Source: Candidatus Promineifilum breve (GTDB lineage: Bacteria > Chloroflexota > Anaerolineae > Promineifilales > Promineifilaceae). Taken from it: a DNA stretch of 64,000 nucleotides. Positions 10,449 through 26,554 of the stretch are shown here, one piece after another. The notes beneath the pieces are model-generated. The model was not told the DNA's origin and searched no databases. It was given only the letters and a program-made list of their open reading frames with translations. Both the position numbers and the translations under genes were made by a program. The first letter of the stretch is position 1, and each line of letters begins with the position of its first letter. The stretch covers positions 620,001 to 684,000 of the forward strand of contig NZ_LN890656.1 of NCBI RefSeq assembly GCF_900066015.1. The letters are read 5' to 3'.

Positions 10449-12875
10449 ATGTCTACCGAAGTGGAACGGGATAGCGCATCCGGCGTTTCGCCCTGGCTGG
10501 CGAGCCTGATGCTGCGCCGCGGCGGGGCCACCCTGCCGCGTTTCGCGGTCTATTACCAACGATTGAGTGGTCTATCGCGCGGCATGCGGCGGCGGCTGCG
10601 GCGCAAGCTGGCCGTCACCGTCACCGGCGCGGCGCTGCTGCTGGCCCTCAGCGGCGGGGCGACATGGGCGCAACCAGAAGCGCCCGAGGCGACGATCACC
10701 GTCGTCAACGGTCAGGTGGCGGTCAACGCCAACGGCAAATGCTCGCTCATCGAAGCCATTCAGAACGCCGATAGCAAGACCAACGGGCAGCCAAATAACG
10801 ATTGCGCGGCGGGCAACCCCAGCGGGGCGGATACGATCAATCTGCCGGCCAATGGGTTGTTTACCCTGAATAATGTACAAGTCAGCGATGTCATCGGCGA
10901 CATCGGCCTGCCGTGGATCAGCACCGCGATGACCATCAACGGCAACGGATCGACCATTCAGCGCAACAGTAACGCGCCTGAATTTCGTATCCTGGCCGTG
11001 GGTAATAATGGCAATCTAACGCTGAACAATACGACCATTCGTGGTGGCCGGGTCGAATCAGGTTATTCATCTGCAACCTATACTTACTATGGTGGCGGGG
11101 GTATACTGAATCAGGGTGTGTTGACGATTACGGGAAGCATCGTAGAGGATAACTCCAACTACCACTTCTATTATTTTGGTTACGGCGGTGGGATTGACAA
11201 TGCTGGAACGCTAACGATCTCCAGCAGTTCGATCCGCGACAACACAACCTCCGGTTACTGGAGTGGAGATGGCGGCGCGATTCATTCCCACAACGGATCG
11301 GTAACCATTCTAAATAGCGTTATCAGCGGCAATACGGTCAGTGGGGATCCTGCCTATGGCGGGGGAATCTCAATTAGCTCCGAGTCATCACTGACAGTCG
11401 ATAACAGCACGTTCTCGGATAATTACGACGATGGTTACGATAGTGCCGCCGGCGGTGGGATTGCGTCCTGGGGCAGTGCGACCATCACCAATAGCACATT
11501 CACCGGCAATGAAGTCCAATCCGTGTACGATGAAGGGCAAGGTGGTGGCATCGTCAATGCCTTTAGCGGTGTGATGGTTATCACCAACAGCACGATCAGC
11601 GCCAATAGTGCTGATGCCACTGGCGGCGGGGTCGCCAACTTTGGCGAGATTACCTTTAACAACACGACCATCACCGGCAACAGCAACGGCGGCGTCTTCA
11701 CCAGTTGCCAAGATCAGGACACCATCAACCGCTTCCGCCGCACCATCGTCTCCGGCAACACTGGCGGTGAAGTGACGCTCGACTACGCCGGTAATTGCCC
11801 CGGTGGCGTCGTGGTCAACAAGAACAACGTCTTCGGCCGCAGCAACAACGCCGGCCTCATCGGCTTCAGCCCCGGCGCAACCGACATCGTCCCCGCCGGC
11901 GCGCTCAACACCATCCTCTCCCCCCTGGCCAACAACGGCGGCCCGACCCAGACCCACGCCCTGCCCGCCAACAGCCCCGCCCTCGACCGCGCCCCCAACG
12001 CCGATTGCACCGCCGCCCCGGTCAACGGCCTCGACCAGCGCGGCCAGCCCCGCAACCAGAACGGCAACGGCGCGGCCGGCAGCAACGACTGCGACGCCGG
12101 CGCCTTCGAGCGCGAAGGCGGCCCCGTCTCCGCTGACCCCGGCTTCTACGCCTCCATCACCGGCGCGGGCAACGTCGGCGGCGTGGCCTTCACCCCGGCC
12201 GACGTGCTCAAGTTCGACCCCAACGCCGGCTGGTCGATGTTCTTCGACGGCTCCGACGTGGGCATCACCAAGAACGTCGCGGCCTTTGAACTCCAGGACG
12301 ATGGCAGCCTGCTGCTGGCCCTGGGCGCCAAGCAGGCCGTGGGCAATCTGGGCACGGTCACGCCCCAGGACGTGCTGCGCTTCGTGCCGTCCGCCACCGG
12401 CGACAACACCAGCGGCTCCTTCTCGCTGTGGGTCGATGGCTCCGCTGTCGGCCTGGCCGCCGCGGGCGAGAAGATCGACGCCCTGGGCCTGACCGCCGAC
12501 GGCCGCATCGCCATCGGCGTCACCGGGGCCTTGTCCGTTCCCGGCTCCGGCGGCGCCACGCTCAAGGCCCAGGACGAGGACGCGGTGGGCTTCAACCGCG
12601 CCACGGCTGCCTGGACCAACTTCTTCGACGGCACGCCCATCCCCGGCCTGAAGGGCGAGGACGTCAACGCCCTGTGGGTCAACCCCACCACCGGCGAACT
12701 CTACATCACCATCATCGGCGCGTTCAACGTGGCCGGCGTGGCCGGCGACGGCCGCGACATCCTGAAGCTGACCCCCGACGCTGGCGCGACCGGCGGCTAC
12801 ACGGCGGCGCTGGTCTACGACGGCTCGACGCAGGGGCTGCTGACCAATATCGACGCGCTGGAGATGATCCCGTAA
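10449..12875 (+). CDS. Secreted right-handed beta-helix protein, CSLREA type
   Basis: An 808-residue exported protein. After a 45-residue N-terminal extension comes a signal-like segment (LAVTVTGAALLLALSGGATWA). The CSLREA-type motif, here CSLIEAIQNA (near residue 98), opens a parallel beta-helix region rich in LTNNSTF and NNTTI-like rungs (about 150-500). It ends with NGGPTQTHALPANSPALDRA and LDQRGQPR, which are typical of these proteins. Residues about 557-808 form the C-terminal domain shared with the proteins at 15990, 21989 and 24014. It contains four repeats centred on FDGSDVG, WVDGSAVGL, FDGTPIPGL and YDGSTQGL. GGAGG before the ATG fixes the start. The likely role is a surface adhesin or polysaccharide-binding protein, which is inferred. 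Confidence 0.88.
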   Translation: MSTEVERDSASGVSPWLASLMLRRGGATLPRFAVYYQRLSGLSRGMRRRLRRKLAVTVTGAALLLALSGGATWAQPEAPEATITVVNGQVAVNANGKCSLIEAIQNADSKTNGQPNNDCAAGNPSGADTINLPANGLFTLNNVQVSDVIGDIGLPWISTAMTINGNGSTIQRNSNAPEFRILAVGNNGNLTLNNTTIRGGRVESGYSSATYTYYGGGGILNQGVLTITGSIVEDNSNYHFYYFGYGGGIDNAGTLTISSSSIRDNTTSGYWSGDGGAIHSHNGSVTILNSVISGNTVSGDPAYGGGISISSESSLTVDNSTFSDNYDDGYDSAAGGGIASWGSATITNSTFTGNEVQSVYDEGQGGGIVNAFSGVMVITNSTISANSADATGGGVANFGEITFNNTTITGNSNGGVFTSCQDQDTINRFRRTIVSGNTGGEVTLDYAGNCPGGVVVNKNNVFGRSNNAGLIGFSPGATDIVPAGALNTILSPLANNGGPTQTHALPANSPALDRAPNADCTAAPVNGLDQRGQPRNQNGNGAAGSNDCDAGAFEREGGPVSADPGFYASITGAGNVGGVAFTPADVLKFDPNAGWSMFFDGSDVGITKNVAAFELQDDGSLLLALGAKQAVGNLGTVTPQDVLRFVPSATGDNTSGSFSLWVDGSAVGLAAAGEKIDALGLTADGRIAIGVTGALSVPGSGGATLKAQDEDAVGFNRATAAWTNFFDGTPIPGLKGEDVNALWVNPTTGELYITIIGAFNVAGVAGDGRDILKLTPDAGATGGYTAALVYDGSTQGLLTNIDALEMIP

Positions 12876-12876
12876 G

Positions 12877-12985
12877 AGATAGAACGCGGATGACGCGGAT
12901 TGGCGCGGATTTTCGCGGATCAGAAGCTATCTGATCCGCGTCAATCCGCGTTAATCCGTGTCATCCGCGTTCCATTCTTTCCGAT
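12877..12985. repeat. Long hairpin of CGGAT units
   Basis: The left arm reads AGAACGCGGATGACGCGGAT with further GCGGAT units; the right arm carries the complementary ATCCGCG units and ends in ATCCGCGTTCC. The loop is about ten bases. It starts one base after the beta-helix stop codon. The same family occurs at 30532, 32108, 35099, 52937 and elsewhere. Confidence 0.92.
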
Positions 12986-13011
12986 CCGCGTGCCATTCCT
13001 ATTTCCCCCTC

Positions 13012-13082
13012 TTTACTTCCTGACGCACCGTGTTATACTGTTTGTGAAAATTCTCACAAACCCCGTTCGCCAATGAGCGGGG
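13012..13082 (+). promoter_or_regulatory. Predicted cbbL promoter with CRP/FNR-type palindrome
   Basis: A promoter-like pair TTTACT (13012-13017) and TATACT (13034-13039) is followed at once by a perfect palindrome TTTGTGA-N6-TCACAAA (13041-13060). This contains the CRP-family consensus TGTGA-N6-TCACA and overlaps the predicted start of transcription, the position expected for repression. A hairpin CCCCG...CGGGG (13061-13082) follows in the leader. The regulator itself is not in the window. Confidence 0.6.
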
Positions 13083-13152
13083 AGTGAGGCGTCTCCGCAT
13101 TGGGCGGCGGCGCGATTGTCGGTTGCAGCACATTCACATGGAGGTCAGACCC

Positions 13153-14544
13153 GTGGCTATTCATAATCCCCTTGCCGGGCCGAAAACGGTCAAAGCGCGG
13201 CCGACGGCCGAGCTGAGCGACGCCTACAAAGCCGGCGTCCGCGCCTATGCTGTCGATTATTACGTACCGGATTATATTCCCCAGGATACCGATCTGCTCT
13301 GTGCCTTTCGGATTCAGCCGCGCGGCGTCGATATGATCGAAGCCGCCGCCGCCGTGGCCGCCGAATCCTCCACCGGAACGTGGACCGAAGTGTGGTCCAA
13401 CCAACTGACCGATATCGATTTCTACAAAGCCAAGGTCTACGCCATCACCGGCGACATCGCCTACATCGCCTACCCGCTCGACCTCTTCGAGGAAAATAGC
13501 GTCGTCAACATCATGTCGTCGATTGTCGGCAACGTCTTCGGCTTCAAGGCCGTGGGCGCGCTGCGGCTGGAGGACATGCGTATCCCCCTGGCCCTGGTGA
13601 AGACCTTCCCCGGCCCGCGTGTCGGCATCTACGACGAGCGGGTGTGGAGCAACAAATGGGATCGGCCGCTCATCGGCGGCACGGTCAAGCCCAAGCTGGG
13701 CCTGTCGCCCAAGGCCTATTCGACCATCATCTACGAATGTCTGTCCGGCGGCCTGGATACGTCCAAGGACGACGAGAACATGAACAGCCAGCCCTTCAGC
13801 CGTTGGCGCGACCGCTTCATGTATGCCCAGGAAGCCGTCGACCGGGCCGCGGCCGAGACGAACGAGTTCAAGGGCCACTGGCACAACGTCACCGCCGGCA
13901 GCACCGAGGAAAGCCTGCGCCGCCTGGAATACGCCTACGAACTGGGCAGCCGCATGGTCATGTTCGACTTCCTGACCGCCGGTTTCGCCGCCTCGGCCGA
14001 CATCTTCAAGCGCGCCGGCGAACTGGACATGATCGTCCATTGCCACCGGGCCATGCACGCCGTCTTCACCCGCCAGGCCAACCACGGCATCGCCATGCGC
14101 GTCGTCGCCAAGTGGCTGCGCCTGACCGGCGGCGATCACCTGCACACCGGCACGGTCGTCGGCAAGCTGGAAGGCTCGTGGAACGACACGCTGGGCATCA
14201 TCGACATCCTGCGCGAGCGGTACGTGAAGGCCAATCTGGAGCACGGCCTCTACTTCGACCAGGACTTCGGCGGGCTGAAGGCCAGTTGGCCGGTGGCCTC
14301 CGGCGGCATCCACGTCCACCACGTGCCCGACCTGTTGAAGATCTACGGCAACGACGCCTTCTTCCTCTTTGGCGGCGGCACCCACGGCCACCCCGACGGC
14401 AGCCGCGCCGGGGCCATCGCCAACCGCGCCGCCGTTGAGGCCGTCAGCGCCGGCCAGACCTTGCAACAGGCCGCCCGCTCCTGCCCCGAACTGCGCAAGT
14501 CGCTGGAGCTATGGGCCGACGTCAAATTCGAGGTTGTGCAATAA
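13153..14544 (+). CDS. cbbL: RuBisCO large subunit, form I lineage, no small subunit (form I'-like)
   Basis: A 463-residue carboxylase that fixes CO2 onto ribulose-1,5-bisphosphate. All active-site motifs are present: ESSTGTW, GNVFGFKA, GTVKPKLGLS, GGLDTSKDDEN (the carbamylated Lys with its Asp and Glu), HCHRAMHAV, HLHTGTVVGKLEG (loop 6 Lys), SGGIH and FGGGTHGHP. KDDEN, loop 6 and the overall length place it in the form I lineage, not form II, III or IV. No rbcS gene lies downstream or elsewhere in the window; prk follows instead. This matches the form I' clade described from Chloroflexota, whose enzymes are octamers of large subunits only. The GTG at 13153 is preferred because GGAGGT sits just upstream; an in-frame ATG at 13138 overlaps that site. 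Confidence 0.96.
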   Translation: MAIHNPLAGPKTVKARPTAELSDAYKAGVRAYAVDYYVPDYIPQDTDLLCAFRIQPRGVDMIEAAAAVAAESSTGTWTEVWSNQLTDIDFYKAKVYAITGDIAYIAYPLDLFEENSVVNIMSSIVGNVFGFKAVGALRLEDMRIPLALVKTFPGPRVGIYDERVWSNKWDRPLIGGTVKPKLGLSPKAYSTIIYECLSGGLDTSKDDENMNSQPFSRWRDRFMYAQEAVDRAAAETNEFKGHWHNVTAGSTEESLRRLEYAYELGSRMVMFDFLTAGFAASADIFKRAGELDMIVHCHRAMHAVFTRQANHGIAMRVVAKWLRLTGGDHLHTGTVVGKLEGSWNDTLGIIDILRERYVKANLEHGLYFDQDFGGLKASWPVASGGIHVHHVPDLLKIYGNDAFFLFGGGTHGHPDGSRAGAIANRAAVEAVSAGQTLQQAARSCPELRKSLELWADVKFEVVQ

Positions 14545-14710
14545 GAAGAGGGAGAATCCACAGATTACACAGATTTCACAGATTGAAGAATAGTGAATAG
14601 TGGATAGTAGACAGTGTATAGACACTGACCACTGTCCACTACCCACTATCTACTATCCACTTTTTCTAATCTGTGAAATCTGTGAAATCTGTGGATTCTC
14701 TTCTCTCCCA
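14545..14710. repeat. Nested hairpin between cbbL and prk
   Basis: The outer hairpin has left arm units CACAGATTA and CACAGATTT (14556-14585) and a complementary right arm (about 14666-14700), flanked by GAGGGAGAATC and GATTCTCTTCTC. Inside it lies a second, unrelated hairpin whose arms are GTGGATAG-type and CTATCCAC-type units (about 14588-14662). The structure ends just before the AGGAGG of prk. Confidence 0.92.
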
Positions 14711-14721
14711 AGGAGGCCACT

Positions 14722-15690
14722 ATGAATCGAAAAACGATCATGCTGGGCGTGGCCGGCGATAGCGCCTCGGGCAAGACGACGATCAGCAAGGGCATCGCCG
14801 AGGCCCTGGGCGCCGAGAACGTGACCGTCATTTGCTGCGACCATTACCACAAATACAACCGCGTCCAGCGTCGCGAGCTGGGCCTCAGCGCCCTGCATCC
14901 CGACTGCAACTACATCGACATCATGGAGCAGCACTTCCGCCTCTTGCGCGAAGGGCAGCCCATCCTGAAACCGACCTATAACCACAACACCGGCGACTTC
15001 GACGGCCCGACCTACGTGCAGCCGACGAAGTACGTCATCATCGAGGGACTGTTGCCCTTCCATTCGCGCCTCATGCGCCTGTGCTTCGACGTGAAGGTCT
15101 ACCTCGACCCGCCGGAGGAGTTGCGCCGGGCGTGGAAGATCAAGCGCGACACCTCCAAGCGCGGCTACACCCATGAGCAGGTGCTAACCTCCCTGCAGGG
15201 CCGGGGCGACGTCTCGCCGCGCTTCATCCACCCGCAGCGGGCCTACGCCGACATGATCGTGCGCTTCTACCCGCCCGACGCGGCCATGGACTCCGGCGAC
15301 AGCCATCTGAACGCCCAACTGGTGTTGCTGCCCACGCTGGCCCACCCCGACCTGAGCGACGTGCTGAGCCACGGCCCCAACGGCCCCACCCATCATCCCG
15401 CCCTGCGCCTCGACCTGGCCCGCTTCGAAGGTAAGCCGGCCGACTTTCTGGAGATCGACGGCTCCGTGGCGCCCGACAAGGCCGAGGAGCTGATGGGCAT
15501 CATCCGCAGCCACTTGCCGCCCAACGCCGGGCTGGACGCGAGCAAACTCGGCCGCTATCTCTACGGGCTGGAAGAGCGGCGCAGCTACCCGCTGGCCCTG
15601 ACCCAACTGTTGATCGCCTACCATCTGGTGCGCACGGCCGACCAGATGGCTTATGCCACCGATCGGGCGGTGGCCCCGGCGGCGAATTGA
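14722..15690 (+). CDS. prk: Phosphoribulokinase
   Basis: A 322-residue cytoplasmic kinase that phosphorylates ribulose 5-phosphate to make the RuBisCO substrate. The P-loop GVAGDSASGKTT lies near residue 10, followed by CDHYHKYNR, HPDCNYIDIMEQH, YNHNTGDF and IEGLLPFH, as in class II (plant and cyanobacterial type) phosphoribulokinases. The redox-sensitive Cys usually found within the P-loop of plant and cyanobacterial enzymes is replaced by Ser, so thioredoxin or CP12 control through that residue is not expected. AGGAGG precedes the ATG. It is separated from cbbL only by a nested repeat and is probably co-transcribed with it. Confidence 0.95.
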   Translation: MNRKTIMLGVAGDSASGKTTISKGIAEALGAENVTVICCDHYHKYNRVQRRELGLSALHPDCNYIDIMEQHFRLLREGQPILKPTYNHNTGDFDGPTYVQPTKYVIIEGLLPFHSRLMRLCFDVKVYLDPPEELRRAWKIKRDTSKRGYTHEQVLTSLQGRGDVSPRFIHPQRAYADMIVRFYPPDAAMDSGDSHLNAQLVLLPTLAHPDLSDVLSHGPNGPTHHPALRLDLARFEGKPADFLEIDGSVAPDKAEELMGIIRSHLPPNAGLDASKLGRYLYGLEERRSYPLALTQLLIAYHLVRTADQMAYATDRAVAPAAN

Positions 15691-15702
15691 GCCTCCCACT
15701 TC

Positions 15703-15750
15703 TTAGACCTGACAGGTTGGCGAACTTCCATTCGTGAACCTGTCAGGTCT
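15703..15750. repeat. CCTGACAGG hairpin after prk
   Basis: Inverted repeat with arms AGACCTGACAGGTT and AACCTGTCAGGTCT around a 19-bp loop. It belongs to the same family as the copies at 6712 and 63580. No T-run follows, so termination at this point is uncertain. Confidence 0.85.
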
Positions 15751-15841
15751 GTTGCCCCGCGCCGCCGGAACAATTCTCCTCTACGGCCACGCCCCAATCG
15801 CTCCATTATTCCTTCCATCGTGAGTAATGTCACCTATAATC

Positions 15842-15885
15842 GTGACAAATATCACTTGTTTCCCCAAGCAGGATTACTCTAAACT
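15842..15885 (+). promoter_or_regulatory. Predicted promoter with upstream CRP/FNR-like site
   Basis: TTGTTT (15856-15861), an 18-bp spacer and TAAACT (15880-15885) match the promoter upstream of 10449 in a shared 32-bp pattern. GTGACAAATATCAC (15842-15855), a GTGA-N6-TCAC palindrome, abuts the -35 box. Its centre is about 43 bp before the predicted start, the position of a class II activator site. The rest of the 299-bp spacer holds a hairpin and no gene. Confidence 0.5.
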
Positions 15886-15989
15886 GCATTCAGTTCCAAA
15901 CCATCTCGCGTCTGTCCGGTGCCGGGCGGCGAAGTCAGTGCCACATCCGGCGCCCCATACGCCCATATTTACATAAGGAGAATAGTCTG

Positions 15990-17903
15990 ATGAAACCGCG
16001 CATTGTCGGATTGTGTCTGCTGGCCCTTATGCTGCTCTTGGTCGGCATCATGCCGGCCGTCATGGCCCAGGGCGAGCCGAGCAACCCTCCCCCGCCGACG
16101 CCCGCCTTGCCCGCCCCGGCCGCCACGCCCCGGCCCCACCAGGGGCAGCCGGGCCTGGTGCCCTCCTCGCCCAATGATTTCACCGTCTCCGGGAAAGTGA
16201 CGGACGTTTTTAACCAACCCGTCACGGATGTTTGGTTCGACGTCTATAACACCAGCACCTGGGATTACTACACGACCTCAACCAATGCCAGCGGCAATTA
16301 TTCGCTCTCCCTGCCCGCCGGGGATTACGATATCGATCCCTATAAGTCCGGCTGGTTATTCAAGCCTGAGATGATCCATGTCACCGTCGGCCCGAACAAG
16401 CCCAACAAGAACTTCCAGGCCGTCGACGCGAATTGGCAGGTGGCCTGGTATAACGCGATCGAAGACGGCTACACCAACGAGGGCAGCAAGACCGCCAACT
16501 ATGGTTCGGCTTCCATTCTGCGCGTCAAGAACGCGGCGGCCGACATGAATGCCTACGTCAAATTCGACGTATATGACCTCGTGCAGGAAACGGAACCCGG
16601 CACCTGCTTCGCCACCGGCGATGGCTGGCTGATGACCTACGTCAAAGAACCCGGCCCCGACGGCGGCGGCGTCTACCCCGTCGGCAACAACTGGAACGAG
16701 ACGACCCTCAACTGGAATAATGCGCCGGCGATCACCGGCGACCCAATCGGCCAGTTCGGGGCCGAGACCGACGAAAGCAACGCCTGGGCGCGCCTATCGA
16801 AGCCGGCGACCGGTGACGGCGTCTACAGCTTCGCCATCCGGAACAATTCGTCTGACTCGGTCGATTACAGCAGTTGGGAGGGCGGCGATTATCCGTGGCT
16901 CGTCGTCGACTACCGGGTCGAGTATAAGGATTTCCTCTCGGCCAATATTTCCTATGACGACTGGGCCGGGTTAGCTCCCTTCACAGTTCAGTTTTTAGAC
17001 CGATCGTATGGCTGCGCCACGTCCTGGCACTGGGACTTCGGCGACGGCGCCACAAGTACTCAGCCGAACCCCAGCCACACCTATTCGTCCCCCGGCTATT
17101 ACGGAGTTAGCCTGACCGTGTCCAATGGTACCTCTAGCGTTAACGCGGGCGACGGCATCTATGTCGTCGAACCTGTCACGCAGTTCTTCATTAGCCCCGC
17201 CACCAATGCCACAATCGGCGGCATCGCCGCGCAGGCGGCCGACGTCCTGCTCTATGACCGGCCGTCCAACACCTGGACGATGGTCTATGACGGCTCGGCC
17301 CACAACACCCTGAAAAATATCAGCGCTGTGGATTTTGACGGCACAGACCTGCTACTGACTTTCAGCGCTAATCAGGCCATTCCCGGTCTGGGAACGGCGA
17401 CGCCGTATGACGTCGTCCGCTTCACGCCCGACGACCCCTATACCTACCCGCTTGGCTCCGGCAGTTTTTCATGGCAGTTCCAGGGCAGGCCAAAGGGGTT
17501 GACAACGGCCGGCGAGAAGATCGATGCTTATGCCTACTCCTGGGCAGAATTGTTATCCACGTCTGGAGCGGCGTCGTTGCCGACCGACCCAATCATCAAG
17601 CGGGCTGACGAAGACTTGTTCAGTTGGTATGCCTGGGATAACAGTTGGTTAACCTGGCCACTGGACGGCTCGACGATCACCGGTCTGGCCGCCGAAGACA
17701 TAAACGGCGTCGCGTACGATTGGACCGATGATTTGTACATCACCATCCTCGGCACCTTCAATCTGGGCGGGATCTCCGGCGACGGCAAAAGTATCGTCCT
17801 GCTAGAGGCTACCGGCGGCGGCTACACGCCATCGCTCGTGCCCTGGCTGGCCCCCGGCGCGACCTTCCCCTCCACCATCGACGCCATCGAGGTGGTGCGC
17901 TAG
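15990..17903 (+). CDS. Secreted DNRLRE/PKD protein with shared C-terminal domain
   Basis: A 637-residue exported protein. A signal peptide (residues 1-27, ending VMAQ) and a proline-rich linker are followed by a carboxypeptidase-regulatory-like beta-sandwich (FTVSGKVTDVFNQPVTDVWF, about 62-145). Next is a DNRLRE-like domain (GSKTANYGSASILRVKN...AYVKFDVYDL, about 150-310) and a PKD domain (about 313-392, with WHWDFGDGATSTQPNPSHTY). Residues about 395-637 are the C-terminal repeat domain shared with three neighbours, with VYDGSAHNTL and LDGSTITGLAAEDINGV. No catalytic domain is recognisable, so a binding or structural surface role is likely. AAGGAG lies upstream of the ATG. A predicted CRP-like site precedes its promoter. 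Confidence 0.88.
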   Translation: MKPRIVGLCLLALMLLLVGIMPAVMAQGEPSNPPPPTPALPAPAATPRPHQGQPGLVPSSPNDFTVSGKVTDVFNQPVTDVWFDVYNTSTWDYYTTSTNASGNYSLSLPAGDYDIDPYKSGWLFKPEMIHVTVGPNKPNKNFQAVDANWQVAWYNAIEDGYTNEGSKTANYGSASILRVKNAAADMNAYVKFDVYDLVQETEPGTCFATGDGWLMTYVKEPGPDGGGVYPVGNNWNETTLNWNNAPAITGDPIGQFGAETDESNAWARLSKPATGDGVYSFAIRNNSSDSVDYSSWEGGDYPWLVVDYRVEYKDFLSANISYDDWAGLAPFTVQFLDRSYGCATSWHWDFGDGATSTQPNPSHTYSSPGYYGVSLTVSNGTSSVNAGDGIYVVEPVTQFFISPATNATIGGIAAQAADVLLYDRPSNTWTMVYDGSAHNTLKNISAVDFDGTDLLLTFSANQAIPGLGTATPYDVVRFTPDDPYTYPLGSGSFSWQFQGRPKGLTTAGEKIDAYAYSWAELLSTSGAASLPTDPIIKRADEDLFSWYAWDNSWLTWPLDGSTITGLAAEDINGVAYDWTDDLYITILGTFNLGGISGDGKSIVLLEATGGGYTPSLVPWLAPGATFPSTIDAIEVVR

Positions 17904-18299: not shown

Positions 18300-18397
18300 C
18301 CCCATCAGAGCGCGGAACCAGCGGCGCAGATTCACCCTTGCCCCCCTGCCCCCCCGCTCCCCTGCTCTTCCAAAATCCACCTCACAGGAGACCACCC

Positions 18398-19348
18398 ATG
18401 ATCGTCACCACCGCCCAGCTATTCCAGGAAGCCTACGGCCGCTACGCCGTCGGGGCCTACAACATCAACAACATGGAGCAAGCCCTCGGCCTCTTCCAGG
18501 GCCACATCGAGGCCCAGGCCCCGTTCATCATCCAGCTCAGCAAGGGGGCGCGCAAATACGCCAACGCCCGCGTGCTGGAGGCCATCATCCGCGCCGTGGA
18601 GAGCGAATACCCCGAAGCCATCTTCGCCGTCCACCTCGACCACGGCGACGAGCAGACCTGCTACGACTGCATCGACTCCGGCTTCTATAGCTCGGTGATG
18701 ATCGACGCCTCCCACGAGACGTTCGCCGAGAACGTCGCCATCACCCGCCGCGTCGTGGAGCGCGCCCACGCCAAAGGCATCAGCGTCGAATCGGAACTGG
18801 GCATGCTCGGCGGCGTGGAGGAAGACATCAAGGTTGACGAGAAGCACGCCATGCTGACCGACCCCGACGAGGCCCAGGCGTTCGTGGAGGCCAGCGGCTG
18901 CGACAGTCTGGCCGTCGCCATCGGCACCAGCCACGGGGCCTACAAGTTCGCCGGCTCCCAGGGGCTACACTTCGACCGCATCGAGGCCATCCAGGCCGCC
19001 CTGCCCGGCTTCCCGCTGGTCATGCACGGCAGCAGCAGCGTGCCCCAATCCGAGGTACAGCGCATCAACGCCGCCGGCGGCGCGCTGAACCCCAACGCCA
19101 AGGGGGTGGACGACAGCCAATTCGGCCGCGCCGCCAAACTGGGCGTGACCAAGGTCAACATCGACACCGACGGCCGCCTCGTCTGGACGCGCGTCCACCG
19201 CGAATTCTTCCGCGACCACCCCGAGGGCTTCGACTTCCGCACCCCCGGCAAGGAGTACGTCAAGGCTTACGCCGACTTCATCGTCGATAAGAGCCGCAAG
19301 CTGGGTTCGGCCGGGCACTTGGAAGAGGTTCGCGCCGCAGTGATGTAG
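18398..19348 (+). CDS. fba: Class II fructose-bisphosphate aldolase
   Basis: A 316-residue zinc-dependent aldolase that interconverts fructose 1,6-bisphosphate with glyceraldehyde 3-phosphate and dihydroxyacetone phosphate; in the Calvin cycle it also makes sedoheptulose bisphosphate. Metal and catalytic motifs are visible: HLDHGDEQT (catalytic Asp and Zn His), ELGMLGGVEED, GTSHGAYKF (Zn His), MHGSSSVP (Zn His) and GVTKVNIDTDGR. The sequence is closest to the class IIA/IIB type used by autotrophs. The start at 18398 follows ACAGGAG; a longer frame upstream is low-complexity proline. It is the third Calvin-cycle gene in the region, separated from prk by a secreted-protein gene, so it has its own promoter. 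Confidence 0.94.
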   Translation: MIVTTAQLFQEAYGRYAVGAYNINNMEQALGLFQGHIEAQAPFIIQLSKGARKYANARVLEAIIRAVESEYPEAIFAVHLDHGDEQTCYDCIDSGFYSSVMIDASHETFAENVAITRRVVERAHAKGISVESELGMLGGVEEDIKVDEKHAMLTDPDEAQAFVEASGCDSLAVAIGTSHGAYKFAGSQGLHFDRIEAIQAALPGFPLVMHGSSSVPQSEVQRINAAGGALNPNAKGVDDSQFGRAAKLGVTKVNIDTDGRLVWTRVHREFFRDHPEGFDFRTPGKEYVKAYADFIVDKSRKLGSAGHLEEVRAAVM

Positions 19349-19575
19349 GGCGGGTTGGTAACCCGCCCACCCCCGGCGGTCGAACCACACCGTGCGGTGG
19401 TTATGCTCGGCGGGTTTCAACCCGTCGCGTCGCGCCGCTCCGCCACAATGCCCGGCGGCCGAATCCGGCGGGATCAATCCCGCCGCTGCTATACGAAACC
19501 CGGCTGAAGCCGGTTGGCGGAGGGTAGCCTCTTCAACCGGCTTCAGCCGGGTTTTGTGTGCCAGCGGCGGGTTAT
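19349..19575. repeat. Cluster of short hairpins after fba
   Basis: Several perfect short hairpins stand in series: GGCGGGTTGGTAACCCGCC, GCGGGTTTCAACCCG, GGCGGGATCAATCCCGCC, and a larger one with arms AACCCGGCTGAAGCCGGTT and AACCGGCTTCAGCCGGGTT (19497-19557). The last ends in GGGTTTTG and could terminate fba transcription weakly. No gene is seen here. Confidence 0.85.
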
Positions 19576-19599
19576 CCGTTTTGACAACTAAACACGGCT

Positions 19600-20700
19600 A
19601 TGTCAGGTAGATACCGTCTTAAAAGTCAAGTACCCAGAGCAGGCGAAAGGGCAAAAGCCGGGTCAAAGGGGCGGCCGGACTTAAGGACGCCGAAGGCTAG
19701 ATGGAGCAGCTTGCGCATGGCGGCGACGACGATGACCATTTTGGGTTTGCCGGCGCGCTGCAGGCGCTGCTGCATGGCCTGGATGACAGGATTGTGGCGC
19801 AGGGCAACCAGCGCGGGCATGTACAACTGCGCGCGCAGGACAGCATTGCCCTTGCGGGAGGTGTGGCCGCGCCCATAGACCGATGTGCCGGATTGGCAAA
19901 CGGACGGAGCCAGGCCGGCATGGGCCACCAGTTGCCTGGGGTTGTCGAAGGCGTGGATGTTGGGCAACTCGACCATCAAGCGGACGGCGGTTAACAGACC
20001 GATGCCGGGGATGGAACGCAGCAGTTGGCAGGTGTGGCGCAGAGCGGGATGGGCCTGCAGATGGGCCTCAATGGCCTTTTGCAACGCCACGATCTGGGCC
20101 TCGAGCACGGCCAGGATGGCTTGCAGGCTGGCCTGAACGATGGGCGGATGAGAACCGGCGGTCAGGCGATTGCGCTCCTGCTGATGCATGTGTTGCACGT
20201 CGGCCACGCGCCGCACGAGGGCGCACAGCTCCTGCTGTTCCGCCGTGGGCGGCGTCCAGAGGGCAGGGCGCTGGGTGCGGCCAAAGTCCAGGATGAGGGC
20301 GGCATCCAGCCGGTCGGTCTTGGCCCGCCGGAGCTTGGACGCACCATAGGCTTTGATGCGCGCCGGATTGACGACCGAAACGGCGTGGCCTTGTTGGCTC
20401 AGGTAGTGGGCCAGGGCCTCACCGTATCGCCCGGTGGCCTCCTGGACCGCCCACACTCGGCCGGCCCCGTTTTTGTCCAGCCAGCGGCTCAGCGCTCGAA
20501 AGTCGGCCGGGTCGTTGTCAAAGCCGCGGCTGTTCTGCCGTGGCCCGACCTGTAACACGGCCTCGAACGTGGCCTTGGCGATGTCGATGCCCAGAAAGGA
20601 ATAGGTGTCTGACATGGTTGACGCTCCTGTTGGTTTGCTCGGATTGGCTTGACAGTCCGGCCCGGCCCTTCTGGTGAACACCCTTGTTCATTCAGGCTCT
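19600..20700 (-). mobile_element. IS110-family insertion sequence, ends not defined
   Basis: The region contains one IS110-type transposase. IS110 elements lack long terminal inverted repeats and usually carry a structured bridge RNA in a non-coding end. I could not define the ends: flanking host repeats end near 19575 and a gene remnant begins near 20708, so the coordinates are approximate. Confidence 0.5.
19626..20615 (-). CDS. IS110-family transposase
   Basis: A 329-residue recombinase. The N-terminal RuvC-like DEDD domain shows FLGIDIAKATFEA (first Asp), VQEATGRYGEAL (Glu) and AKTDRLDAALI (two Asp). The C-terminal transposase_20 domain has LRSIPGIGLLTAVRLMVEL, the GLAPSVCQSGTS segment with the catalytic Ser region, and RKGNAVLRAQLYMPAL. 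The length agrees with full-length family members, and no frameshift is seen, so it may be active. The start at 20615 (MSDTYSFLGID) is chosen because a longer frame reads into non-coding sequence. It sits between fba and a stretch of gene remnants. Confidence 0.95.
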   Translation of the reverse strand: MSDTYSFLGIDIAKATFEAVLQVGPRQNSRGFDNDPADFRALSRWLDKNGAGRVWAVQEATGRYGEALAHYLSQQGHAVSVVNPARIKAYGASKLRRAKTDRLDAALILDFGRTQRPALWTPPTAEQQELCALVRRVADVQHMHQQERNRLTAGSHPPIVQASLQAILAVLEAQIVALQKAIEAHLQAHPALRHTCQLLRSIPGIGLLTAVRLMVELPNIHAFDNPRQLVAHAGLAPSVCQSGTSVYGRGHTSRKGNAVLRAQLYMPALVALRHNPVIQAMQQRLQRAGKPKMVIVVAAMRKLLHLAFGVLKSGRPFDPAFALSPALGT

Positions 20701-20707
20701 TTCTGTG

Positions 20708-20809
20708 GTAGAATGGCCTACGATACCGTTCGTTCTGGCGAAGGGCTTGCGGGTAGGGGACCTCATCTACGTTTCAGGTGTAGCTACCCCTAGGGGCGAG
20801 GACAGGTTC
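20708..20809 (+). pseudogene. Possible RidA-family gene fragment
   Basis: One frame reads PFVLAKGLRVGDLIYVSG, which resembles the N-terminal strand of RidA/YjgF enamine deaminases. After about 34 residues the similarity stops and the frame runs into repeat DNA. The fragment lies next to the IS110 transposase, so it may be a gene cut by the insertion or by a later deletion. The match is short and is judged by eye. Confidence 0.35.
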
Positions 20810-20867
20810 ACCCTACCCGTGGCCTTTCGCCAGACATTACCTCCTTTCGCTTCCCCCTTCAAGATAC

Positions 20868-21015
20868 AAGGGGCGAGGCGACGGCGAAAAACCTCGTCAA
20901 AACATAGAACCTCGTCTCGCCGTCGCCTCGCCCCTCTTCGCCCCAGAGGGCCAGGCAACCGGGAGTGGAGGCTAAGGTGATCGGCCGAACCTCTTCCCGG
21001 TTGCCTGGCCCCTAC
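20868..21015. repeat. Two long hairpins downstream of IS110
   Basis: The first has arms GGGGCGAGGCGACGGCGA and TCGCCGTCGCCTCGCCCC (20873-20934). The second has arms GGCCAGGCAACCGGGA and CCCGGTTGCCTGGCC (about 20949-21010). A relative of the second lies at 45708-45770. Confidence 0.88.
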
Positions 21016-21239
21016 ACCTGGGTTATCCGCATTCATTCATCAAAACGCATCAACCCGCCACGCCAACCTATCACATCCACCACCCGGGCAGGTTGCCAAT
21101 CCGGCCAACATCACAGCGCGCGGCCCAGCGCCGGTTCCGGCTTGCACATCCGCATCAGGGGGCTGCCCAGGCTGTAGGGGATGAACTCCCCCAACGGCAT
21201 CACCTCGACCAGCGCCGACATCCGCGCCGCAAAATATGT

Positions 21240-21280
21240 TATAATCGTTCCGCGACGCCTGGATGGGGCGTCGCGATTTT
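21240..21280 (+). promoter_or_regulatory. TATAAT box followed by a leader hairpin with T-run
   Basis: TATAAT (21240-21245) is followed after five bases by a perfect hairpin CGCGACGCC-tggatgg-GGCGTCGCG (21251-21275) and ATTTTCT. It lies just upstream of the truncated ORF at 21298. It could be an attenuator or a stabilising 5' hairpin. Confidence 0.5.
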
Positions 21281-21297
21281 CTATAGAGGAGTAACCA

Positions 21298-21345
21298 TGC
21301 TGGTCGAACTCTCCCGCTTGCGCATCAAGCCCGGCAAAGCCCAGT
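21298..21345 (+). pseudogene. Truncated 16-codon ORF, DUF6176-like start
   Basis: The ORF MLVELSRLRIKPGKAQ has a good ribosome site (AGAGGAG) and stops after 16 codons. The beginning resembles DUF6176 proteins, which open with a similar LVRIKIKPGK strand. It may be a remnant after deletion or a short leader peptide; the sequence alone does not decide. Confidence 0.35.
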
Positions 21346-21441
21346 GATGAATAGCCCGCCATCGCTTTCGCTTTCGCAATCGTTCTGTGGCAAGCAACCG
21401 ACGGTCTCATTCACCCTAAAATCGCCAGGAGATAAATCCCC

Positions 21442-21858
21442 ATGAGTGAAAACAGTAACAAGACCCAATTCAACGACGCCGCCGTCACCGCTTTTCTCGA
21501 TGCCGTCCCCGACGAGCGCAAGCGCCGCGACAGCTACGTCATCCTGGAGATGATGCGCGAGATTAGCGGCGAGGAGCCGCGCATGTATGGCACGAGCATC
21601 GTCGGCTTCGGCAACGTCCACTATCAATATGAGAGCGGCCGCGAGGGCGACATGCCCGTCGTCGCCTTCTCGCCCCGCAAGCAAAACCTGACCCTCTACA
21701 TCACCACCGACGACGACGAATACGAGGCCCTGCGCGCCCGGCTGGGCAAGCACAAGGTCGGCAAGGTGTGCCTCTACATCAACAAGCTGGCCGACGTCGA
21801 TCCGGCCGTGCTGCGCGAGATGATCAGCCACACGGTTTCCACTGTGCGCGCCGGTTGA
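21442..21858 (+). CDS. DUF1801 domain protein
   Basis: A 138-residue cytoplasmic protein of the DUF1801 (YdhG-like) family. Family hallmarks visible are the RRDSYVILEMMREISGEEP segment, MYGTSIVGFGNVHYQYESG, the FSPRKQNLTLYI strand and GKVCLYINKLADVD near the end. No enzymatic activity is established for the family. AGGAG precedes the ATG. The gene is followed by 130 bp and then the trypsin-like gene, which has its own TATAAT box, so it is probably transcribed alone. Confidence 0.9.
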   Translation: MSENSNKTQFNDAAVTAFLDAVPDERKRRDSYVILEMMREISGEEPRMYGTSIVGFGNVHYQYESGREGDMPVVAFSPRKQNLTLYITTDDDEYEALRARLGKHKVGKVCLYINKLADVDPAVLREMISHTVSTVRAG

Positions 21859-21867
21859 TCGTTATGA

Positions 21868-21930
21868 TATAATTTCCCCAATCGCGTATCCCGCCGGGCC
21901 GTTGCTTGTTCCGGCGGTTTGCCGGTTATC
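21868..21930 (+). promoter_or_regulatory. TATAAT box and leader hairpin of the protease gene
   Basis: TATAAT (21868-21873) follows the DUF1801 stop. A hairpin CCGCCGG...CCGGCGG with a TTT tail lies about 20-45 bp downstream, in the predicted leader. The arrangement parallels that at 21240. Confidence 0.4.
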
Positions 21931-21988
21931 TTATATTCCTGTCGCCGGTCGCCTGGCCGGTGGCCCAGTTTGTTGTTGGGAGGATTTT

Positions 21989-23620
21989 GTGAACCAGATG
22001 GCGTCGTTTTCTGTTCGTTTCGTTCGTCTATCGCGGGTGGCGTTGATCCTGCTCTTCGCCTTCGCCCTGCTGCCGGCGGTGCTGGCCCAGGACGAAAGCC
22101 CGCCGCCCATCATCGGCGGCCAGGTCGCCGGCCCCGGCGAATGGCCGTGGCAGGTGGCGCTGATCGGCGCCGGCGGCGATCCCTATGCCGCTCAATACTG
22201 CGGCGGCTCGCTCATCGATGTCGAGTGGGTCGTCACCGCCGCCCATTGTGTCGTCGGCGACGATGCCAACGACGTCCAGGTGCTGGCCGGCATCCATGAT
22301 CTGGGCGACCCCGAGGCCGGCTACCAGCGCCTCGACGTGGCCCAAATCTACGTCCACCCGCAATATGAACAGGCGGCCCAATACGATAAGGACGTGGCCC
22401 TGATCCGCCTGGAAGACGCCGCCGACCTGGGGCCGACGCCCGGCGGCGAGATGGTTGCCACCATCCCGTTGGTCTCGGCCGGCGTCGGCAGCCTGGCCGG
22501 CGAACAGGCGTCGATCTCCGGCTGGGGCAGCGACGGCAGCGGCTATCCGGAAGACCTGATGGAAGCCGTCGTGCCCATCGTCACCAATGCCGATTGCAAC
22601 GACAGCAACAGCTACGACGGCGACATCACCGCCGCCATGCTCTGCGCCGGGTATACGGCCGGCGGCGTCGATACCTGCGCCGGCGATAGCGGCGGCCCGC
22701 TGGCAATTGACGGCCCGAATTGGAAGCTGGCCGGTATCACCAGTTGGGGCAACGGCTGCGCCCTGCCCAACTACTACGGCGTCTATACCCGCGTGTCACA
22801 GGTCGTGGGCTGGATCGAGGAAACGATGGGGACGGTGACGCCGCCCACCGAACTGGACGTCTACGTGACCGCCACCGCCGCGGGCACGACGAGCGACGGG
22901 CAAGCCTTCGACAAGCGCGACATCCTGCGCTGGGACGCCGGCACCGGCGACTGGTCGCTCTATCTGGACGGCAGCGCCCTCGGCCTGCCCACCAAGGCCG
23001 ACATCGTGGCCTTCGACATCCCCAACCCGGCCAACGGTTCGGCCGTCATGGCCTTCGCCAAGACGGTGACCATCACCGGCGTGGGCGCGGTGGCCGCCCA
23101 CGACTTGCTGCTGCGTGAGACCAACGGCTTCGCCCTGGGCTTCGACGGCTCCGACGTGGGCCTGACGACCGGCGGCGAGAAGCTCGACGCGGTGGAGATA
23201 CTGCCGGGCAACCTGTCGCCCATCGGCTCGAATTGCGACAAGTACATCCTGTTCAGCACCAAGACCGGCGGCACGGTGCCGGCCCACAACGGCGGCAATC
23301 TGCAATTCAAGGGCGAGGACGTGCTCGGCTTCTGCGGCACGCAATTGGGGGCCACCACCCAGGGGTCGTGGCATCTGCTCATCGACGGCTCGGTCGAAGG
23401 CATGCCCAAGAACGCCACCGTCAGCCTGTCGGCCAGCGCCGACGGCCAGACGATCTACCTGACGACCAAGGGCAATTTCAACGTTGACAGCGCGTCGGGC
23501 GGCCATTCGATGATCTATAGCTACAGCCTGGCGACCGACCAGTTCAGCGGCCCCATCTGGAGCGGCCCGGCCGAAGGGCTGCCCAAGACGGTGGATGGGC
23601 TGGACGTGATCGCGCCGTAG
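21989..23620 (+). CDS. Secreted trypsin-like serine protease with shared C-terminal domain
   Basis: A 543-residue exported S1 peptidase. A signal segment (LSRVALILLFAFALLPAVLAQ) is followed by IIGGQVAGPGEWPWQVALI, where the mature enzyme may begin at IIGG after activation. The triad is intact: His in VVTAAHC, Asp in YDKDVALIRLE and Ser in CAGDSGGPLAI. Cys residues around the active site suggest disulphides. Residues about 289-543 form the four-repeat C-terminal domain found on three neighbours, with LDGSALGL, FDGSDVGL, IDGSVEGM and GPAEGLPKTVDGLDVIAP. GTG at 21989 is preferred since GGGAGG lies six bases before it; ATG at 21998 is the alternative. Confidence 0.92.
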   Translation: MNQMASFSVRFVRLSRVALILLFAFALLPAVLAQDESPPPIIGGQVAGPGEWPWQVALIGAGGDPYAAQYCGGSLIDVEWVVTAAHCVVGDDANDVQVLAGIHDLGDPEAGYQRLDVAQIYVHPQYEQAAQYDKDVALIRLEDAADLGPTPGGEMVATIPLVSAGVGSLAGEQASISGWGSDGSGYPEDLMEAVVPIVTNADCNDSNSYDGDITAAMLCAGYTAGGVDTCAGDSGGPLAIDGPNWKLAGITSWGNGCALPNYYGVYTRVSQVVGWIEETMGTVTPPTELDVYVTATAAGTTSDGQAFDKRDILRWDAGTGDWSLYLDGSALGLPTKADIVAFDIPNPANGSAVMAFAKTVTITGVGAVAAHDLLLRETNGFALGFDGSDVGLTTGGEKLDAVEILPGNLSPIGSNCDKYILFSTKTGGTVPAHNGGNLQFKGEDVLGFCGTQLGATTQGSWHLLIDGSVEGMPKNATVSLSASADGQTIYLTTKGNFNVDSASGGHSMIYSYSLATDQFSGPIWSGPAEGLPKTVDGLDVIAP

Positions 23621-23631
23621 CGATTTTCCGG

Positions 23632-23797
23632 TAGGGGCGAGGCGGCGGCGCCTCGCCCTCTTTGTTCGTAGTAGGCACTTTAGTGCCGTCTGAAGAACGG
23701 CGATAAATCGCCTGACTACAAACGGACCTCTTTGTTCGTAGTAGGCACTTTAGTGCCCGTCTGAAGAACGGCGATAAATCGCCTGACTACAACTGAC
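23632..23797. repeat. Direct pair of GTAGTCAGGCG-type hairpin units
   Basis: A short GGCGAGGCGGCGGCGCCTCGCC hairpin-like copy (shown here only by its arms GGCGAGGC and GCCTCGCC) is followed by two nearly identical 78-bp units (23663 and 23731). Each unit holds GGCACTTTAGTGCC, GTCTGAAGAACGGC and GGCGATAAATCGCC, and closes with TGACTACAA, complementary to TTCGTAGTA. A related unit lies at 44430. Confidence 0.85.
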
Positions 23798-23806
23798 CTT
23801 CCAAAC

Positions 23807-23885
23807 ATGACATTTGTCACCCCAATTACATGACAATAGTGGTGACATGAGTTGATTGACTCACCCTCCGCTATTCGTTTATGCT
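23807..23885 (+). promoter_or_regulatory. Promoter region of the metallopeptidase gene
   Basis: ATGACATTTGTCAC (23807-23820) is, read on the other strand, a 12/14 match to the site before 15990. A second GGTGACATGA lies at about 23841. TTGACT (23856-23861), 18 bp and TATGCT (23880-23885) form a possible promoter. A further imperfect hairpin AACAGCGACACCCC...GGGTTGCTGTCGTT lies in the leader at 23950-23980. Confidence 0.4.
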
Positions 23886-24013
23886 CCTTCTAAGGATAAG
23901 CAGGTTTCTCTCACCATAGCCCTTATCTTTGCCAATTTGTCCGGTGGTTAACAGCGACACCCCATCGTGGGTTGCTGTCGTTTTGTCGTCCATTTGTTCC
24001 TGGGAGGATCACC

Positions 24014-26554
24014 ATGTTGTCACGTTGGAAGTATCTGCCGCTGTTACTCCTGGCCGGTCTGCTGGTGTTGTTCACCGGCTCAGCCCTGGCCCAGAGTAAT
24101 GAGAAATATTCCGGAGCCACTAACGGCGAAGGCGAAGCCCTAACCGGCACGTTCCTCGTCATCTGGGGCGACCCCCAACCCAATTCGGGCGAGGCCGCGC
24201 AAACGCTCTATTTCCTGGTCACCGATGCCGGCGAAGAGCTTCAGCTGGCAATAAGCGCCGACACGCTGGCCGCCGCCGGCGGTGTAACGGCCCTCAACGG
24301 ACGGCGCGTCACGATTCACGCCATCCGCCAGGCCGTGCCCGGCGACGACACCGCGGCGGCCGTGACCGGCGCGATCGAACTCGTGCCCGGCCAGCCCTCC
24401 GACCCCAGCCCCATTACCGGCACGCAGCCCTACGTCTCCATCCTCTGCAAGTTTAACGACATTCCCGACCAGCCGCGGGGGCTATCTTACTTCACCGGTA
24501 TGTACAGCAATTCCTATCCGGGGCTGGATCACTATTGGCGAGAGACCTCATTCAACCAGGTCAACATCGCCGGCAGTAACGCCTACGGTTGGTTCACCTT
24601 GCCACAGCCACGCAGCGCCTACTTTGACGCCGAGGGCAACCTGTTGCGCAACGATGTGCTGTTCGATTGTATTGGCGTGGCTAATGCGTCAGTCAACTTT
24701 CCGTCCTTCAGCGGCATCAACATGATGTTCAACGCCAATCTGGATTGTTGCGCCTGGGGCGGCAGCCGGACGCTGACCCTCGACGGCGTGACGAAGCAAT
24801 ACGGCGTCACCTGGGAGCCGCCCTGGGCCTATAATAATATCACGGTGATGGCCCACGAGATGGGCCACAGCATGGGCATGCCCCATTCCTCCGGCCAATA
24901 CGGCCTCGTCTACGATAACCGGTGGGACGTGATGAGCGACACCTGGACCGATTGCGACCGGGCCACCCACGCCACGTATGGCTGCGTGGGCCAGGGAACC
25001 ATCTCCTTCCACAAGAATCTGGTCGGCTGGATTCCGGCGGCGCGCCGTTTCACCCTGGGCAGTAGCGCCCAGACGATCACCCTGCAGCGGCTGGCCCAGC
25101 CGGGCGCGTCCGATTACCTCATGGCGATCCTGCCCATCAACGGCTCGAGCAGCCACTACTACACCGTCGAAGCCCATAAGTGGGCGGGCTACGACGTCAA
25201 ATTGCCGCTGGAGGGCGTGGTCATCCACGAAGTAATCGACGGCGTCGCCTACGTGATCGACATCGACGGCGACGGCGACACCGGCGACAGCGGCGGGCAA
25301 TGGCTGCCGGGCGAAACCTTCTATGGCCAGGACGATAACGTGGTCGCCATCAACAGCGCCACGTCAACCGGCTATACCGTCACCCTCTCCCGTGGCAGCG
25401 GGCCCACCGACCCCCATGAGCCGAACAACAACCGGGCCAACGCCACGCTCATCGCCTATGGCGACGTGGTCGACGATCCGCTCATCGACCCGGCCGGCGA
25501 CGTGGACTTCTACCGCTTCAACGGCCAGGCCGGCGACGCGATCACCGTCGATATCGACGCCGTCACGCTCGGCTCCGACCTCGACTCCACGCTCCAGTTG
25601 CAGAATGCGTCGGGGAATTTGTTGGCCGAAAATGACGACACCACCAACCACGACTCCCTGCTGACCTACACCTTGCCGTCGAACGGGGTCTACTACGTGC
25701 GCGTGCGCGAATTCAACCACGGCAACGAGGGCGGGTCGAGCTACTTCTATACCTTGAAGCTCACCAAGCAGGGCGTCGCGACCGCCGCCGACATCTACGT
25801 GGCGACCAACGCCATCGGCGTCACGGCCGACGGCCAATCCTTCAACAAGCGCGACATCCTGCGCTGGGACGGCGACACCGGCGCCTGGTCGCTCCATCAG
25901 TCCGGCAATGCCATCGGCCTGCCGACCAATGCCGACATCGCCGCCTTCGACATCCCCAGCGCCGCCAATGGCTCGGCCAACATGGCCTTCACCAAGAACG
26001 TGACCATCGCCGGCGTGGGCACCATCTTGCCCCATGACCTGCTGCTGCACGATCCCAACGGCTTCGCCCTGCGCTTCGACGGCTCCGACGTGGGCCTCTC
26101 GACCGCCGGCGAAAAGCTCGACGGCGTGGAACTGTTGCCCGGCTACCTGTCGCCCATCGGCACGAACTGCGACAAGTACATCCTGTTCAGCGTGAAGACG
26201 GGCGGCTCGGTGTCGGCCTATAATGGCGGCACGATCACCTTCTCCGGCGAGGACGTGCTCGGCTTCTGCTCCACGCAGTTGGGCACGAACACCCAGGGGT
26301 TGTGGCATCTGCTCATCGATGGCTCGGCCGAGGGCATGCCCCGCAATTCGACCGATAGCCTGTCGGCCAGCGCCGACGGCCAGACGATCTACCTGACGAC
26401 CAAGGGCAACTTCAACGTTGACGGCGCGTCGGGCACGCATTCGATGGTCTATACCTACAGTCTGGCGACCGGCCAGTTCAGCGGCCCCATATGGAGCGGC
26501 CTGGACGAGGGGTTGCCCAAGACGGTGGATGGGCTGGATGTGATCGCGCCGTAG
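24014..26554 (+). CDS. Secreted zinc metallopeptidase with PPC and shared C-terminal domains
   Basis: An 846-residue exported protein. The signal peptide (1-27, ending SALAQ) leads to a beta-rich region and then a metzincin-like or M6-like catalytic domain with HEMGHSMGMPH (near residue 281): three zinc His and the catalytic Glu, all intact. A pre-peptidase C-terminal (PPC) domain follows (about 465-585, DPHEPNNNRANATLIAYGD...DVDFYRFN). Residues about 591-846 are the four-repeat C-terminal domain, almost the same as that of the trypsin-like neighbour. GGGAGG precedes the ATG at 24014. The protein is most likely an extracellular or surface-bound protease. Confidence 0.92.
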   Translation: MLSRWKYLPLLLLAGLLVLFTGSALAQSNEKYSGATNGEGEALTGTFLVIWGDPQPNSGEAAQTLYFLVTDAGEELQLAISADTLAAAGGVTALNGRRVTIHAIRQAVPGDDTAAAVTGAIELVPGQPSDPSPITGTQPYVSILCKFNDIPDQPRGLSYFTGMYSNSYPGLDHYWRETSFNQVNIAGSNAYGWFTLPQPRSAYFDAEGNLLRNDVLFDCIGVANASVNFPSFSGINMMFNANLDCCAWGGSRTLTLDGVTKQYGVTWEPPWAYNNITVMAHEMGHSMGMPHSSGQYGLVYDNRWDVMSDTWTDCDRATHATYGCVGQGTISFHKNLVGWIPAARRFTLGSSAQTITLQRLAQPGASDYLMAILPINGSSSHYYTVEAHKWAGYDVKLPLEGVVIHEVIDGVAYVIDIDGDGDTGDSGGQWLPGETFYGQDDNVVAINSATSTGYTVTLSRGSGPTDPHEPNNNRANATLIAYGDVVDDPLIDPAGDVDFYRFNGQAGDAITVDIDAVTLGSDLDSTLQLQNASGNLLAENDDTTNHDSLLTYTLPSNGVYYVRVREFNHGNEGGSSYFYTLKLTKQGVATAADIYVATNAIGVTADGQSFNKRDILRWDGDTGAWSLHQSGNAIGLPTNADIAAFDIPSAANGSANMAFTKNVTIAGVGTILPHDLLLHDPNGFALRFDGSDVGLSTAGEKLDGVELLPGYLSPIGTNCDKYILFSVKTGGSVSAYNGGTITFSGEDVLGFCSTQLGTNTQGLWHLLIDGSAEGMPRNSTDSLSASADGQTIYLTTKGNFNVDGASGTHSMVYTYSLATGQFSGPIWSGLDEGLPKTVDGLDVIAP

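Follow-up and report, generated by a model that had tools for sequence, protein, structure and literature searches.

A predicted four-bladed beta-propeller of hemopexin type shared as a C-terminal module by unrelated secreted proteins of Candidatus Promineifilum breve

Type IX secretion C-terminal domains (CTDs), PEP-CTERM, choice-of-anchor and PPC regions are beta-sandwich domains or short tails. Four-bladed beta-propellers are found in the hemopexin-type domains of the matrix metalloproteases MMP-13, MMP-1, MMP-2 and MMP-9, of vitronectin and of hemopexin, as well as in the legume seed albumins of hemopexin fold LS24, CP4, CAL and DC25. The seed albumins consist of four blades of four strands in about 225 residues and have one Asn/Asp channel residue per blade (PMC6934871). 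Here we describe a domain with traits of all these systems, found at the C-terminus of four proteins encoded in a 64-kb stretch of the Candidatus Promineifilum breve genome (hereafter, the window; Table 1).

A sequence-only reading of the window had claimed that these four proteins end in one common domain made of four repeats. The common domain is real, since its ~250 residues can be aligned from one end to the other in all four proteins, 30 columns being invariant, and the residue ranges given earlier for the four C-termini were correct, allowing for start-codon offsets. Circularity was avoided by building the test profile only from relatives in other genomes; this profile retrieved the four ORFs with E values of 3.6e-65, 1.3e-36, 2.3e-34 and 2.7e-32 and matched no further ORF within the window. 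The fourfold repetition proved uneven: it was strong in protein 1 (blade-to-blade z-scores of 2.6-9, compared with up to 25 in a canonical relative) and partly eroded in proteins 2, 3 and 4, where several blade pairs had z-scores near zero and the repeat was visible mainly through the family alignment. Each blade follows an approximate pattern: D-[IVL]-[LV]-x-[FY] leads through a loop to an outer strand containing W or F, next come D-G-[ST] and a short turn of helix, and after these [ED]-x-[IV]-D-[AG] and then G-x-[IL]-x-[IV]-[ST]. The Asp at the start of strand C is conserved in 71-75 of the 75 family members in all four blades. Asp121, in the IDA motif of blade II, is invariant (75/75), Asp246 is conserved in 68 of 75 members, 63 of 75 have Asp or Asn at position 55, and position 184 varies; the conservation of Asp121 and Asp246 is compatible with a candidate ion site. 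When conservation was sorted by loop type, no binding face stood out. Copies of the domain diverge down to about 25-30% identity.

Table 1. Domain-bearing genes of the 64-kb window and features of their predicted C-terminal propellers (positions in the window).
Feature	Position	Strand	Content or basis
Protein 1	10449-12875	+	signal peptide, beta-helix part, choice-of-anchor Q, C-terminal propeller
Protein 1 propeller domain	12141-12872	+	alignment, independent profile; modelled, pLDDT 94
Protein 1 propeller, strands B, C and D of closing blade (N-terminal)	12141-12245	+	DSSP of model; repeat alignment
Protein 1 propeller, blade I, strands A-D	12276-12434	+	repeat alignment, model
Protein 1 propeller, blade II, strands A-D, with Asp121 of IDA motif	12474-12626	+	repeat alignment, model, family conservation
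Protein 1 propeller, blade III, strands A-D	12663-12818	+	repeat alignment, model
Protein 1 propeller, innermost strand A at C-terminus, predicted to close the ring	12849-12869	+	model, fold alignment
Protein 2	15990-17903	+	signal peptide, CarboxypepD_reg-like part, CBM96/DNRLRE, PKD, C-terminal propeller
Protein 2 propeller domain	17172-17900	+	alignment, independent profile
Protein 3	21902-23620	+	signal peptide, trypsin S1 (PF00089, E 3.9e-61), C-terminal propeller
Protein 3 propeller domain, the DNA stretch homologous to protein 4	22856-23620	+	independent profile; modelled, pLDDT 92.9
Protein 4	23972-26554	+	signal peptide, M6-like metallopeptidase, PPC domain, C-terminal propeller
Protein 4 propeller domain, 84% DNA identity to 22856-23620	25790-26554	+	independent profile, DNA comparison

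Several other genes are interleaved with those of the secreted proteins. A transposase-like ORF (19626-20681, minus strand), presumably of IS110 type to judge from its sequence, sits between proteins 2 and 3, and genes for a RuBisCO large subunit and for phosphoribulokinase-like and fructose-bisphosphate aldolase-like proteins lie at 13129-15690 and 18338-19348. The RuBisCO large subunit, encoded between proteins 1 and 2, matched PDB entry 6URA from end to end with 1070 bits (runner-up, 711). This entry represents the Form I' RuBisCO from Candidatus Promineofilum (Promineifilum) breve. The species' Form I' enzyme has been described (PMC10135865). The match assigns the window to this species or to a very near relative, within Chloroflexota. 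The protein 1 gene also has a paralogue (L139:4848-7445). The DNA of the two is ~89-90% identical at either end and has diverged in the beta-helix part between; the pair resembles a diversified passenger between conserved ends.

The domain had not been recognised from the sequence, and no Pfam or NCBIfam family scored above its curated cut-off in the four C-termini of the window. Scans of 51 and 75 family members against these collections gave stray weak matches only. The commonest, DUF4984 (PF16372), concerned 39 of 75 members, was partial and had a best E value of 3.3e-6; it reached 16-20 bits in the five members detailed, remained below its 25-bit cut-off in each member seen in detail, and covered ~45-72 of 164 profile positions at repeats that varied between members. 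For the hemopexin family PF00045, a search of the four window proteins that allowed E values as high as 1 was empty, and 51 family members gave no match to it (all 25 families that matched were checked). Nor did PF00045 match in 151 Chloroflexota genomes, but this blank carries no weight, as the control genomes were equally silent. Searched against PDB sequences, the family profile found no related chain and, at E up to 10, no hemopexin. Kelch, NHL, WD40 and similar propeller repeat families did not match the four window proteins and gave stray weak matches in single relatives (e.g., NHL, 14.2 bits for a cut-off of 20). The type IX sorting domain TIGR04183 scored 14.9, for a cut-off of 23, at residues 532-579 of protein 4, which correspond to the PPC region, outside the propeller. 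A plasmid collection held no match to the domain, and our literature search found neither the motif FDGSDVGL nor any work connecting hemopexin with Chloroflexota, the mention of Chloroflexi being in a general propeller survey. By these sequence comparisons, the domain is an uncatalogued family, missing from Pfam and NCBIfam.

The earlier suggestion that the domain is possibly a small beta-propeller is strongly supported by two confident models and by fold comparison. The AlphaFold2 model of the protein 1 domain, for which 75 aligned sequences served as input, had a mean pLDDT of 94.0 and a pTM of 0.90 and was all-beta apart from short helices, one at each of three DGS motifs out of four; that of the protein 3 domain (pLDDT 92.9, pTM 0.90) had the same arrangement despite ~30% identity to the protein 1 domain. 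With VIA-align, ranks 1-20 for the first model were all hemopexin-type four-bladed propellers (Z 9.1-11.7, rmsd 3.5-4.3, 158-182 residues), MMP-13 being the best (Z 11.7, rmsd 3.5, 163 residues); seed albumins reached Z 10.3-10.8 with as many as 182 residues aligned, and no unrelated propeller exceeded Z 8.6. For the second model, the top four were hemopexin-type (MMP-13, Z 11.6; MMP-1, 10.2; vitronectin, 9.1) and the rest had Z of 8.8 or less; Z values of ~11 are moderate, and the ranking of hemopexins above other propellers reflects blade number in part. Foldseek alone placed the larger kelch and paraoxonase propellers first, with TM about 0.3-0.4 and rmsd 8-12; because these superpositions were poor, we preferred the refined alignment. 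Matches in a viral structure library were only generic propellers and some viral matrix metalloproteases. The prospect of a new fold was not borne out, since the domain resembles hemopexin-type four-bladed propellers. On the strength of the models, we regard it as highly probable that it is a closed four-bladed beta-propeller of hemopexin type, shared as a module.

The strand order of the predicted ring appears to differ from that of its nearest fold matches. In the model and in the repeat alignment, the first strand of the domain is homologous to the B strands of the other repeats and the last one to their A strands. MMPs and seed albumins align from model residue 7-8, in the N-terminal strand B, up to 240-244; the final strand of the domain (245-251) thus has no aligned counterpart, and on the hemopexin side the first strand A precedes the aligned range. 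The channel residues of the seed albumin DC25 (6ix1) are Asn5, Asp63, Asp119 and Asp172 (PMC6934871). Our alignment begins at DC25 residue 13, so that Asn5 falls where strand A has moved; the equivalent positions in the domain are 55, 121, 184 and 246. From the strand order and the alignment ranges, the domain looks like a hemopexin-type ring permuted by one strand, whose closing blade would combine strand A from the C-terminus with strands B, C and D from the N-terminus (a 1+3 closure).

Where four copies had been noted before, the whole genome has 35 domain matches in at least 32 proteins. Their distribution between contigs is far from proportional, with 25 of the 35 on contig C2 (1.00 Mb) and ten on C1 (3.99 Mb). 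Genomes of the same genus have 29, 18, 16, 14, 9, 2 and 0 matches, and in the wider phylum the domain occurs in 6 of 400 sampled genomes, that of the window included. A scan of one genome per species, whose narrower alignment favours canonical members, detected 283 relatives, of which 80 were kept, these mostly from Chloroflexota. A restriction of the family to this phylum is refuted by relatives in Cyanobacteria, Planctomycetota and Proteobacteria (Nitrosomonas, Methylobacter) and in a handful of metagenome bins from further phyla; the taxonomy of bins may be wrong, but no bin label is attached to the records of Calothrix, Tolypothrix, Nitrosomonas and Methylobacter. In the phylogenetic tree, the genome's own copies fall into several clades, each mainly of this genus, suggesting that much of the expansion was local.

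The earlier view that unrelated N-terminal domains carry one common module is supported, and it now covers at least 32 proteins of the genome instead of four. All 32 (those in the genome stretches examined) have a signal-peptide-like segment, and 31 of them end within 11 residues of the domain. Across 80 loci, the protein ends no more than 11 residues past the match in 66; among the exceptions, three have a second copy at the very end, the domain is internal in Methylobacter L090, and a few Caldilineaceae-type relatives add an acidic tail of ~50 residues. The internal copy and the tailed relatives indicate that the extreme C-terminus is not strictly required. We searched the own copies for a short sorting tail, and they end in the last propeller strand, without any hydrophobic or basic tail. 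The ~50 acidic residues that follow the domain in L071, L076, L095, L096 and L136 (several of them Caldilineaceae) finish in a motif like IFLPLITR or FYLPILSR, possibly a separate C-terminal signal of Chloroflexota secreted proteins; this ending was found in none of the long ORFs of the window. A short protein encoded at L162:2224-3273, adjoining a subtilase with a full copy, carries a lipobox-like AAGC directly before a diverged, incomplete domain copy and is possibly a lipid-anchored stand-alone form.

Partner domains are very diverse. Beyond the window, those of the own copies include subtilase (S8), sulfatase, alpha-amylase with CBM20, endonuclease/phosphatase-like, beta-helix, LVIVD, FG-GAP, Ig-like and prealbumin-like repeats; in other genomes they include subtilase (S8) with P-domain, papain (C1), M14, M36, M23, endonuclease I and apiosidase.

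Comparison of close copies at the DNA level suggests how such combinations arose. The domains of proteins 3 and 4 are highly similar (Table 1), and their N-terminal parts and 3' flanks are unrelated; the homology begins within six bases of the domain start and stops on the final stop-codon base in both genes. The pair L149/L151 has a similar border, with 89% identity over 774 bp and unrelated N-terminal parts. Two pairs of related genes have a dS far lower in the domain than upstream (0.13 vs 1.03; 0.05 vs 0.71), which points to recent conversion, and in other gene pairs dS is similar and dN about six times lower in the domain (0.03 vs 0.18), which points to stronger constraint on it, the upstream dS and dN values being perhaps inflated by misalignment in repetitive parts. 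As these borders indicate, the domain is moved between genes as a precise DNA module.

We propose that an ordinary N-terminal signal peptide exports these proteins and that, outside the cell, the propeller docks its varied passengers, secreted enzymes as well as adhesin-like proteins, onto a single common target, which is most likely the producer's own envelope, sheath or extracellular matrix. This role would be akin to that of the hemopexin domains that keep matrix metalloproteases on their substrate or surface, and recombination at the exact module borders would exchange the propeller between genes. Among surface anchoring, sorting and substrate binding, the three roles offered by the sequence-only reading, the evidence leans towards docking or retention on a shared target. 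A common target appears preferable to the substrate of each enzyme because one clade of own copies spans trypsin, M6-like metallopeptidase, amylase, Ig-repeat and beta-helix partners. The docking reading also draws on the Pro/Thr-rich linkers that precede the domain in 45 of 74 loci of other genomes (44% P+T vs 16% background); against it, long linkers are missing from most copies in the genome of the window. We infer that retention is the best fit to position, partners and exchange; the shared fold by itself shows no function, as propellers bind many things, and different clades may have different targets, given their divergence. Taken as a whole (a permuted hemopexin-type ring, docking or retention on a common target, and exchange at exact borders), the balance tips slightly in favour of our proposal. 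A bolder version, which we find rather doubtful, would make the permuted propeller a general attachment module of a bacterial lineage, recognised on the surface of the filament by a single receptor or matrix component; new surface enzymes and adhesins would be built by adding its DNA cassette, excised precisely at the module borders, to further secreted proteins.

The remaining alternatives rank with substrate binding first, a structural cap second and a sorting signal last. As a substrate-binding module, the domain would be a lectin- or protein-binding propeller delivering each enzyme to a polymer, like a carbohydrate-binding module (CBM). In its favour, the hemopexin domains of MMPs are substrate binders, the existence of several clades could point to more than one ligand, and the domain occurs on hydrolases with Pro/Thr-rich linkers resembling those of CBMs. 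However, that a single clade serves trypsin, metallopeptidase, amylase and beta-helix proteins, with close copies on unrelated N-terminal parts, means that a single ligand would have to suit all substrates, and we consider this alternative improbable. A little less probable still is a structural cap or multimerisation domain, protecting the C-terminus or joining proteins without any outside target. The ring is predicted to be stable and compact, its conserved DGS motif may serve the fold only, and domains of hemopexin type are able to form dimers, one of which (1itv, from MMP-9) is among the fold matches, but the acquisition of the domain by so many unrelated secreted proteins of one genus would be left unexplained. 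A C-terminal sorting signal of the kind used in type IX secretion, read by machinery dedicated to export or attachment, would suit the nearly constant position at the extreme C-terminus and the many unrelated cargoes, but it is quite unlikely, since a complete closed ring of 250 residues is large for a signal, all own copies have a Sec-type signal peptide, the domain may be doubled, internal (L090) or tailed, and copy number varies from 0 to 35 within the genus.

Docking or retention on a common target would have wider implications. If the domain is a retention module, it would mark the secreted proteins that stay on the filaments of Promineifilum and of other Chloroflexota shaping activated-sludge flocs, and it would provide a ready tag for surface display. 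The constant ring, the changing passengers and the homology stopping at module borders make a clear case of natural domain shuffling within one bacterial genome, by a family that has 35 matches in that genome and relatives in several phyla and is yet missing from Pfam and NCBIfam.

Like the hemopexin-type domains, the domain described here is predicted to be a four-bladed beta-propeller in which Asp/Asn starts the innermost strands; in proteins 3 and 4 it stands, as in MMPs, on the C-terminal side of a secreted protease. Unlike PF00045 members, to which it has 8-15% identity in structural alignment, it is missing the hemopexin sequence signatures. The protein 1 domain contains no cysteine and, therefore, none of the terminal disulfide that joins the first and last blades of MMP hemopexin, although some relatives carry a cysteine in blade IV. 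The hemopexin order begins with the innermost strand of blade I, whereas here this first strand would be shifted to the C-terminus, and the range of partner domains is far wider. The legume seed albumins also have four blades but are stand-alone plant proteins, unpermuted, that bind ions or haem analogues. With type IX CTDs, PEP-CTERM, choice-of-anchor and PPC, the domain shares the use of one C-terminal part by many unrelated secreted proteins; unlike them, it is predicted to be a closed propeller, and they have no above-cut-off sequence match in it. Its most likely role is docking or retention in the manner of the MMP hemopexin domain, although it does not belong to the hemopexin sequence family.
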